A stretch of 64,000 nucleotides of DNA, from positions 62,001 through 126,000 of the forward strand of contig JAQWFQ010000026.1 of NCBI GenBank assembly GCA_029238665.1. The letters are read 5' to 3'. This document shows positions 30,877 through 55,400 of the stretch, piece by piece. The stretch is from Crocinitomicaceae bacterium. GTDB lineage: Bacteria; Bacteroidota; Bacteroidia; Flavobacteriales_D; Crocinitomicaceae. The translations under genes were made by a program, and so were the position numbers. The notes under the pieces were generated by a model. It had not been told where the DNA came from, ran no database searches, and saw only the letters and a list, made by a program, of their open reading frames with translations. How positions within the stretch are numbered: the first letter of the stretch is position 1; each line of letters opens with the position of its first letter.

Positions 30877-30884
30877 TATCTTTG
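30877..30884 (+). promoter_or_regulatory. Candidate -7 element of the rpsO promoter
   Basis: TATCTTTG followed by CCCC, 47 bases before the rpsO ATG. The same TATCTTTGCCC sequence precedes the tRNA-His gene, which supports it as a promoter for a highly expressed gene. The -33 region is not clear. Confidence 0.55.
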
Positions 30885-30930
30885 CCCCGTCGAAGAGCGA
30901 CTACATAATAATTATTTAAACAATATTGGA

Positions 30931-31200
30931 ATGTATTTAGATACAAAAGAAAAGAAAGAGATTTTCAAAAAACACGGTGGTTCAGAAACGAACACAGGTT
31001 CAGCAGAAGGTCAAGTTGCATTATTCTCATACAGAATATCGCATTTAACAGAGCACTTAAAAAAGAATCGTAAAGATTACGGTACACAAAGATCGCTTCA
31101 ATTATTAGTTGGTAAACGTAGAAGTTTATTGGATTACTTGAAAGCTAAGGATATTGAGAGATACCGTGCTATCGTTAAAAAATTAGGCTTACGTCGTTAA
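30931..31200 (+). CDS. rpsO: 30S ribosomal protein S15
   Basis: 89 residues, the universal length. GSAEGQVALFSYRISHLTEHLKKNRKDYG and the C-terminal RRSLLDYLKAKDIERYRAIVKKLGLRR regions are S15 hallmarks. S15 binds 16S rRNA helices 20-22 early in 30S assembly. It is followed by a strong terminator and then pnp, the classic rpsO-pnp order, but here each gene seems separately transcribed. Confidence 0.98.
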   Translation: MYLDTKEKKEIFKKHGGSETNTGSAEGQVALFSYRISHLTEHLKKNRKDYGTQRSLQLLVGKRRSLLDYLKAKDIERYRAIVKKLGLRR

Positions 31201-53937: not shown

Positions 53938-55101
53938 TTACTTGAGCTTGTTTAGGTTTAATTTGCTTCGTACAGGGTTTGCATACATTGCTAGAAACAC
54001 AGGTTGATATTTTTGATCAATCAAGTCAAGTCTAGCTTCAAAGTTGTCCCGATCTTCTTGTAGAATTGCAACTTCGCTTGTTAACTCTTCTAATTTTGGT
54101 CCAATGGAGTCGTCTAGTGTTTGGAGTTTTTCGTAAGCAATGTAGTTGGGTGCTTGAAGTAAGTAATTTTCAATAATTTGATTGTCAATTTCCAGTGCTA
54201 TTTCAGTAGCATTTTCTTTGGTTGTGGTTATTTTTTTTCCAAATGAAATGTGAATGTTTCCTTTCGGGTTCAAAAGACCTGTAACAATGCTTTTTTGATC
54301 GGTGTTATCATCTTTTGTGTAGGTTTCATTATTCATATTCATATAGACTTCTTTGGCTTTCATTGAATCGCAAGGGTCTAGTTCGTATGAAATTGAAATG
54401 GGAATGATATTAAGTGAGTTGATAGCATCGCTTAGTTTCGTTTTTGCATCGTTTTTGTGCCCTCCTAACTGAAGCATTTTAATAATTGCAGGTTCTGTAA
54501 AATCGATACCGTCTTTTGCGCGTCCTTCTTTTTGCGCAATCCAAATGCTGTGTCCTGATTTTATTTGATGATGAATGTAGCGGGATAAGTGTTTTAAGGC
54601 AAATAGTTTTTCTCGTCCAATCAAGGATCGCTTAACAATGAAGCTTTTGTTTAACCTCATTAAATCTGCAATGTATTTTTTCTTTAGTAAGTTGTCGCCG
54701 ATAGCAATTTCTACCGTGTTGTGGTTTGCTTTGTGGAGTAGGTAACTTACCAGTGCGGGGTCCATTGATATGTCTCGGTGATTTCCTATGAACAAATAAG
54801 CATCCTCTTTGTTTAGCCTGTCTAATCCGGAGATGGTAACTTTTTTTGCTGTTTTATTTAAAATGGCATTGAGTTCTTCTCCAACAATATGTTGAATGTC
54901 CAGTATTGTTTTGATTGACTTTAACTTGTGTTTAATAACTATTCGAACAACAGCTTTAGTAATAGTTGGGCTATATTTAAACAGTTTAGGGAAGCGAAAC
55001 TTTGCCATGCCGATGATTAACTCATCTTGTTGGTGTAAGGTTTTAATTACTGCTTCAACTTCATGGTCTCGATAAGGTCTAATGTCTTCAAACTCATCCA
55101 T
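53938..55101 (-). CDS. PlsC-like acyltransferase with N- and C-terminal extensions
   Basis: 387 residues. The acyltransferase core has the NHRDISMD motif (H-x4-D, about residue 107-114) and EGRAKDG and KEVYM-containing blocks. About 90 extra residues at the N-terminus (FRFPKLFKYSPTITKAVVRI) and about 110 at the C-terminus lie outside the usual PlsC fold; the latter has a helical part (SEVAILQEDRDNFEARLD). Acyl-CoA/ACP-dependent glycerol- or lysophospholipid acylation is likely, but the acceptor is not shown by sequence. The tandem structured repeats and the tRNA-His gene lie upstream. Confidence 0.85.
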   Translation of the reverse strand: MDEFEDIRPYRDHEVEAVIKTLHQQDELIIGMAKFRFPKLFKYSPTITKAVVRIVIKHKLKSIKTILDIQHIVGEELNAILNKTAKKVTISGLDRLNKEDAYLFIGNHRDISMDPALVSYLLHKANHNTVEIAIGDNLLKKKYIADLMRLNKSFIVKRSLIGREKLFALKHLSRYIHHQIKSGHSIWIAQKEGRAKDGIDFTEPAIIKMLQLGGHKNDAKTKLSDAINSLNIIPISISYELDPCDSMKAKEVYMNMNNETYTKDDNTDQKSIVTGLLNPKGNIHISFGKKITTTKENATEIALEIDNQIIENYLLQAPNYIAYEKLQTLDDSIGPKLEELTSEVAILQEDRDNFEARLDLIDQKYQPVFLAMYANPVRSKLNLNKLK

Positions 55102-55152
55102 TAATAATATGGTCTATTTATCTTTGTTTCAAATGTACCAAAAATAAGAACA

Positions 55153-55205
55153 TGCGTAAGCATGTGAAGACTATGGCTTGGACGGGAAGTCCAAAAAGAC
55201 AGAGG
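55153..55205. repeat. Structured tandem repeat, copy 1
   Basis: 53 bases. First part: hairpin CATGC-GTAA-GCATG (55151-55164) with a GNRA tetraloop. Second part: TTGGAC (55178-55183) pairs with GTCCAA (55189-55194) around a GGGAA loop. Spaced 57 bases from copy 2. See copy 2 for the compensating changes. Confidence 0.8.
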
Positions 55206-55209
55206 AAAG

Positions 55210-55262
55210 TGCGTAAGCATGTGAAGACGAAGGCTCGACCGGGAAGGTCGAATAGCCAGAGG
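55210..55262. repeat. Structured tandem repeat, copy 2
   Basis: 53 bases aligned without gaps to copy 1; the first 19 bases are identical. The second hairpin is TCGACC (55235-55240) with GGTCGA (55246-55251) around the same GGGAA loop. Against copy 1 three of its pairs change on both sides at once (T-A to C-G, G-C to A-T, A-T to C-G), so pairing is kept while the sequence is not. A further GGCT/AGCC pairing (55232-55235 with 55254-55257) encloses it. Confidence 0.8.
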
Positions 55263-55286
55263 TACGACCCTCGGTGCCGAGTAAAC

Positions 55287-55316
55287 AAAAAAAAGGCCTT
55301 GATTTCTCAAGACCTT
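55287..55316 (-). terminator. Rho-independent terminator of the tRNA-His transcript
   Basis: On the minus strand AAGGTCTTGA, loop GAAA, TCAAGGCCTT (one G-U pair), followed by a run of eight T. It begins ten bases after the end of the tRNA. Confidence 0.92.
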
Positions 55317-55325
55317 AATAAAATG

Positions 55326-55400
55326 GGTGGAAGATGGGGCTCGAACCCACGACCCTCGGTACCACAAACCGATGCTCTAACCAACTGAGCTACAACCACC
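55326..55400 (-). tRNA. tRNA-His (anticodon GTG)
   Basis: Cloverleaf read on the minus strand: D-arm TAGCTCAGTTGGTTAGAGC, anticodon loop TTGTGGT with GTG, T-arm GTGGG-TTCGAGC-CCCAT. The extra G at -1 and C73, identity elements of tRNA-His, are present. No CCA is encoded. The acceptor stem has T-T at 5:68 and 6:67 (5' GTGGTTG, 3' CTTCCAC), so it has two mismatches. A TATCTTTG promoter element lies just upstream and a terminator just downstream. Confidence 0.95.

Follow-up and report, generated by a model that had tools for sequence, protein, structure and literature searches.

Two tandem copies of a short hairpin-forming unit lie between an acyltransferase-like gene and tRNA-His in the window, the whole 64,000-nt stretch of Crocinitomicaceae DNA analyzed here. 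With a probability of roughly three in four, they represent a two-hairpin DNA repeat of Crocinitomicaceae that is dispersed and non-autonomous and works much as REPs and Rickettsia palindromic elements (RPEs) do. This explanation claims no function for the cell. Points that weigh against it, each detailed below, are the lack of Y1 transposase genes in the window's genome and of any association between such genes and the repeat, the replacement seen at a topoisomerase site, the small number of sites with gene sequence on both sides of the unit, the missing tRNA match in the left flank of the window pair, and the G·T preference of hairpin 1. Since sharp-ended copies are dispersed over many contexts and vary in presence and absence, the unit spreads; since it carries no gene, it depends on an enzyme supplied in trans or spreads by recombination. 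We infer that the unit would move, or be copied, as a folded single DNA strand acted on by an enzyme in trans, and that it would settle at harmless places such as spare gene 3′ ends, protein linkers, and cassette spacers. Unequal exchange could multiply it in tandem, and its pairs would be kept by the need to fold during movement or copying, with help from template switching. The features of the locus are given below, where R1 denotes a covariance model built from seven copies.

53938-55101, minus strand: acyltransferase-like gene (named by eye)
55147-55204, plus strand: copy 1 of the repeat unit (repeat search; R1 match of 69.3 bits, E 5.3e-14 in its own genome)
55147-55149, plus strand: AGA of copy 1 (read from the sequence)
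55150-55165, plus strand: hairpin 1 of copy 1, loop GTAA (read from the sequence)
55166-55171, plus strand: GAAGAC of copy 1 (read from the sequence)
55178-55194, plus strand: inner stem-loop of hairpin 2 of copy 1, loop GGGAA (read from the sequence)
55205-55266, plus strand: copy 2 of the repeat unit (repeat search; R1 match at 55209-55266, 71.8 bits)
55209-55220, plus strand: hairpin 1 of copy 2
55223-55228, plus strand: GAAGAC of copy 2
about 55232-55257, plus strand: hairpin 2 of copy 2, with tail GAGGT
55264-55278, plus strand: 15-nt copy of the tRNA-His interior, ACGACCCTCGGTGCC (repeat family at 93%), abutting copy 2 on the right
55270-55281, plus strand: third hairpin, CTCGG-TG-CCGAG (from the sequence), a snapback in which a tRNA-like piece precedes its reverse complement
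55287-55316, minus strand: terminator-like hairpin with a T-run, 3′ of tRNA-His (from sequence and folds)
55325-55399, minus strand: intact tRNA-His (GTG)

The repeat search delimits the tandem copies at 55148-55204 and 55205-55261, with a spacing of 57 nt and 79% identity. The initial annotation had correctly reported a tandem pair but gave its unit as 53 nt instead of 57 nt. Each copy consists of one hairpin with a GTAA loop and one with a GGGAA loop, with GAAGAC between them, and 12 differences separate the two copies. Compared between copies, the six inner pairs of hairpin 2 read TA/TA, TA/CG, GC/GC, GC/AT, AT/CG, and CG/CG; three of the six are changed on both sides with pairing intact. 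When the 12 differences were scattered randomly, 20 of 1,000,000 runs kept all six pairs and also produced three or more double changes, which supports the earlier claim that the GGGAA-loop hairpin is kept by three compensatory changes. In the outer stem, as read from the sequence, copy 1 has one broken pair (GGCT/AGAC) where copy 2 has GGCT/AGCC, a break that the initial annotation had overlooked. Both strands fold better than shuffled sequence (plus strand, 55125-55325, z −4.20; minus strand, 55100-55330, z −4.87), each folded stretch including the tRNA terminator hairpin. To the right of the pair, the ACGACCCTCGGTGCC copy corresponds to tRNA-His bases 25-39 counted from the gene 3′ end, and the score of this flank against tRNA-His (25) was reached by none of 200 shuffles; no match to tRNA-His was found in the left flank. 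The ACGACCCTCGGTGCC copy is followed by GAG, closing the CTCGG/CCGAG hairpin. A 78-aa frame over the repeat was rejected as coding: by eye, the copies differ mostly at amino-acid-changing sites, and the frame is therefore not kept as protein here.

Across the family, the unit reads AGA–hairpin 1–GAAGAC–nGA–hairpin 2–GAAGGA/GAGGTA over about 62 nt. With this layout, ending in GAAGGA, the complementary strand has CTTC directly 5′ of each hairpin foot. Among 189 units, the AGA start is conserved at 0.96/0.87/0.94, GAAGAC is present in 171, and the ends are sharp: outside AGA and the tail, no flank column exceeds about 0.6 bit. Where units form tandem arrays, the period is 57-60 nt. The two loop types singled out in the initial annotation, GNRA and GGGAA, are present in the window copies but are not family features. 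The loop of hairpin 1 usually has three bases (GAA, ACT, GCA, or GTA); a 4-nt GNRA loop was recognized there in 5 of 181 distinct units, by a rule that returned no loop for 27 of them, and GGGAA loops occur in 38 of the 181. Terminal inverted repeats of the MITE kind were not found, the ends AGA and GAAGGA/GAGGTA not being inverted copies of each other. A short form of the unit comprises hairpin 1 and GAAGAC without hairpin 2. Short-form repeats in other Flavobacteriia/Fluviicola records (L143, 690-870; L203, 6400-6520; L184, 5040-5070) continue after GAAGAC with CGAACG(T/A)TAGTGAAGGG- or CGAAGGGA-like sequence, and often lie inside a C- or G-rich outer stem. No Rfam 15 family matched the repeat at or above its gathering score; the unit was accordingly rejected as a known RNA. 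The Rfam scans gave only tRNA, rRNA, SRP, S15 leader, and weak or chance matches. The S15-Flavobacteria ribosomal protein leader (RF03161, 60.9 bits) is located at 30877-30933 on the plus strand of the window.

The repeat extends well beyond this locus, through genomes of a family of water bacteria. A DNA search of 40 related genomes gave partial relatives in three others (G004, G008, and G009), its remaining matches being the tRNA terminator. At E ≤ 0.1, R1 matched 25 of 34 same-genus genomes and 16 of the 22 genus genomes with at least 90% completeness and at most 5% contamination; match numbers were 11 in the window's own genome and 42 in G046. At E ≤ 1e-4 and under stricter filters, R1 matched 41 of 150 sampled family genomes in 8 of 24 genera, and 24 of 249 genomes in an order-wide sample, all 24 within the window's family. 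A pattern scan of named genomes returned mostly Fluviicola, Crocinitomicaceae, and other Flavobacteriales/Flavobacteriia records, together with some chance-like matches in other phyla. Phages and plasmids searched for the unit gave no match, and one viral-contig pattern match looked chance-like by eye; a phage or plasmid origin was rejected on these grounds. The family is also carried by CP034120.1 (L131, L152, L163, L190, and L202), a record labeled Glaciecola amylolytica. The genome search puts G137 in genus g24 of the window's family, and the species label on CP034120.1 is probably wrong.

Copies occur in several kinds of location, among them protein genes. The unit lies in frame in proteins at L145, L197, L173, L175, and, in two copies, L190, each time read on the element strand in one peptide frame with a KTE core. 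This is the RPE-like pattern of in-frame insertion in unrelated protein genes with a single peptide frame. For the topoisomerase gene at L197, 14 genomes of that genus were compared: the insert is present in 2, absent in 11, and not parsed in 1, and the 11 genes without it have a shorter, unrelated linker. The topoisomerase comparison gave no clean pair of empty and filled sites but a replacement of 27 nt, which speaks against clean insertion with target duplication there. The unit also comes after the C-terminal end of prfA (named by eye) in G000 and G016, where it provides the stop codon. G046 carries arrays of one-strand genes with units in the spacers, which start near TAACAGC and end near AAACGTTATA. 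We take these spacers to resemble integron cassette (attC-like) sites. No integron integrase scored over the TIGR02249 cutoff in the 34 genus genomes. The G046 arrays (L076, 2000-14100; L077, 3300-8700) contain many small genes, several of them lipoprotein-like.

Stable RNA genes account for 47 of the 107 first-set matches, which lie within 700 nt of genes for tRNA-His, Gln, Lys, Pro, Arg, Met, Asn, Val, Leu, and Ser, 5S, SRP, or tmRNA (one 5S gene, at a contig end, was recognized by eye); the other 60 lie elsewhere, many of them in the G046 arrays. Orientation is strongly biased, with 42 of the 47 located 3′ and antisense, 4 located 3′ on the same strand, and 1 located 5′. In the window's genome, eight of the 11 matches are at RNA genes (two at tRNA-His, three at tRNA-Gln, three at 5S) and three at the prfA end. 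Whether copies flank tRNA genes had been posed as a check, and they do. The antisense units usually abut or split a partial copy of the neighboring RNA gene. These 42 units come from 22 loci. In 25 of them, the sequence to the left copies the gene 3′ end and stops 0-1 nt before AGA; in 13, the gene continues in the right flank; and in 4, by a strict rule, the gene is found on both sides. Either flank matches the adjacent gene in 34 of 42 units, vs 4 of 42 for a random gene of another kind. Counted from the gene 3′ end, the pieces to the left and right of the unit are bases 1-23 and 25-39 for His (left from L016, right from the window), 11-26 and 29-44 for 5S, 1-23 and 26-36 for Leu, and 1-12 and 16-24 for Arg. 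By general tRNA position numbering, the split points in tRNAs fall in the T-arm. Inspection by eye at sites of tRNA-His, Gln, Arg, Lys, and 5S often shows that the reverse complement of the resumed piece comes next. We favor an origin of the split copies by insertion into a duplicated gene with subsequent loss of the 5′ half over the alternative that the gene end was copied together with the unit. In the literature searched, this pattern of split RNA gene copies as targets was not found. Downstream of the SRP RNA gene of G044 (L087), long GAGTGTGAGTGTGAG-type purine-rich repeats surround the units, and GTGAGTGTGAG tracts resembling them occur near units in L132, L156, and L183. An unlikely extension is that this is a new mobile repeat which targets the folded 3′ ends of stable RNA genes by recognizing fold or RNA rather than sequence. 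If so, tRNAs would be split at the T-arm and 5S at the matching place, on one fixed strand; a partial gene 3′-end copy and a snapback hairpin would be left behind; and the same property would be used for entering cassette-site hairpins.

RPEs are described in passages of PMC10969869 and PMC3733652 as short structured repeats that sit between genes and in frame in unrelated proteins and encode a conserved peptide on one strand, and the present unit shares both placements and the single peptide strand. RPEs, compared here by description, measure about 150 bp according to part of a review, whereas the present unit has 62 nt and two hairpins, belongs to another phylum, and is linked to stable RNA gene 3′ ends. 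With GTAG-/CGTC-tagged REPs, including a CGTC-tagged family reported in Bacteroidetes, it has in common short hairpins, alternative complementary stem bases, tandem groups, and a short constant tag by the hairpin foot, as far as sections of PMC3733652 describe them. Unlike these REPs, it has the tag GTCTTC/CTTC on the complementary strand, its hairpins come in fixed unlike pairs, and it showed no RAYT association. Like an integron attC site, the unit in G046 sits between genes of cassette-like arrays, but it lies within a longer spacer and is itself without core recombination motifs. That longer spacer, as we take it, is itself attC-like. The two-hairpin repeat is a new family within the palindromic repeats of the REP/RPE kind, with an unusual tie to the 3′ ends of stable RNA genes; no description of it in Fluviicola or Crocinitomicaceae was found in the literature searched. 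It adds a Bacteroidota two-hairpin palindromic family that alters proteins in frame and resides in split RNA gene copies, and annotators are best advised to mark the stretch as a repeat rather than a new RNA gene.

Base pairing is conserved throughout the family. In alignments fitted to the model, whose pairing and G·T/A·C counts lean towards it for that reason, 96.0% of pair cells pair among 102 distinct units (shuffled mean 70.5%), with double changes at 15 of 15 pairs and a covariation score of 0.615 vs 0.187; shifting the partner by one to three columns lowers pairing to 19-37%. A second set of 82 distinct units, which overlaps the first and has some loci in common with it, gave 96.7% pairing and double changes at 14 of 15 pairs. 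Without the model, the unconstrained second pair of hairpin 1 is Watson–Crick in 86 of 91 pattern matches. A further model-free check used a sequence pattern only (hairpin 1 half-fixed, hairpin 2 free) and single-base shuffles; of 88 distinct contexts, 49 had z below −1 over the 44 nt that follow GAAGAC (median −1.2), many of the other contexts being short forms without hairpin 2 and some of them chance matches in unrelated phyla. In hairpin 1, G·T outnumbers A·C by 60 to 6, and by 16 to 2 at the outermost pair in the pattern-found set, so one strand may need folding there. Hairpin 2, with 30 G·T and 31 A·C over both stems (15 to 11 in the inner stem), has no such excess and therefore looks maintained at the DNA level.

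The initial annotation had read the compensatory changes as the mark of selection on an RNA structure. The structure is indeed conserved far past this pair of copies, but RNA selection is not a necessary reading: the unit is dispersed and lies in frame in proteins, G·T and A·C are about equal in hairpin 2, and template switching is a published route to compensatory pairs in RNA hairpins without selection (PMC8794818, in part). Since such pairs can arise by mutation, RNA selection is not proved. In a serious contender, which we place somewhat below even odds, mutation rather than selection is the main cause of the conserved pairing: during replication, template switching or quasipalindrome correction would copy one stem arm from the other, so that both changes of a pair arise in a single event. 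Snapback hairpins near the units suggest that DNA template switching may restore pairs, TCAAACC-TT-GGTTTGA at the Arg site and CTCGG-TG-CCGAG in the window each being local gene sequence plus its reverse complement, and hairpin 2, with few wobble pairs and no excess of G·T over A·C, fits this view. Against it, hairpin 1 favors G·T as if one strand must fold, and the constant GAAGAC linker needs a separate explanation. The hairpin-1 preference would also fit selection on RNA; together with the strong covariation and the good plus-strand fold, it is the evidence for a plus-strand transcript acting as a structured RNA under selection. We nevertheless judge such an RNA quite improbable, given that the unit is multi-copy, recurs in frame in proteins and inside cassette spacers, matches no Rfam family, and combines variable loops with sharp ends amid unrelated contexts. 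Dozens of copies drifting within the same genomes offer a clean data set on selection versus template switching in hairpins.

The RNA-gene-linked arrays might instead be scars of tyrosine-recombinase elements in tRNA T-arms, each leaving a 3′-end copy. The break in the T-arm and the tandem recurrence of 3′-end copies agree with this, as does the partial plus complete gene copy left by known tRNA integration (described in part of PMC9897764). Such an origin is nonetheless very doubtful, because the unit is also found at 5S, SRP, and tmRNA sites with different sequences and in protein linkers and cassette spacers, and because several sites have the gene resuming past the unit (13 of 42 right flanks). 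Less remote, though still not probable, is that the unit serves as REP to a Bacteroidetes RAYT (TnpA-REP subclass 2.6), which would move it in trans by cutting at the CTTC beside each hairpin foot. This complementary-strand CTTC resembles REP tags. Relatives encode proteins that bear NHLH, WQ, and YIHNNP, motifs tabulated for subclass 2.6, and atypical flanking secondary structures are also reported for this subclass (both in sections of PMC6006769). A Y1 gene with the subclass-2.6 motifs in G104 (L270) has about 2.5 copies ~100 nt upstream, and at L222 the unit interrupts a Y1 gene. A search for a RAYT-type gene had been proposed in the initial annotation; such Y1 genes do occur in relatives (12 of 34 genus genomes), but none was found in the window's genome, and they do not track the repeat, being present in 9 of 25 genomes with matches and 3 of 9 without. 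A cognate Y1 gene flanked by the repeat, as expected of a RAYT-type REP, was not found; in two sets of Y1 loci, R1 detects the unit at one locus out of 21 and one out of 18 (E < 0.01), and a different hairpin repeat lies on either side of the L270 gene. The canonical GTAG/GTGG tag is also absent, the complementary strand reading nGTCTTC at the hairpin-1 foot. A CGTC tag results when the base after GAAGAC is G, which holds for 51 of 173 GAAGAC sites, and window copy 2 shows CGTCTTC on the complementary strand. At L270 itself, the hairpin repeat lies near GCTGGATCTCCTGATCCTG on both sides of the Y1 transposase gene (1356-1382 and 2072-2097), and this is likely a REP-transposase locus with its own, different repeat.
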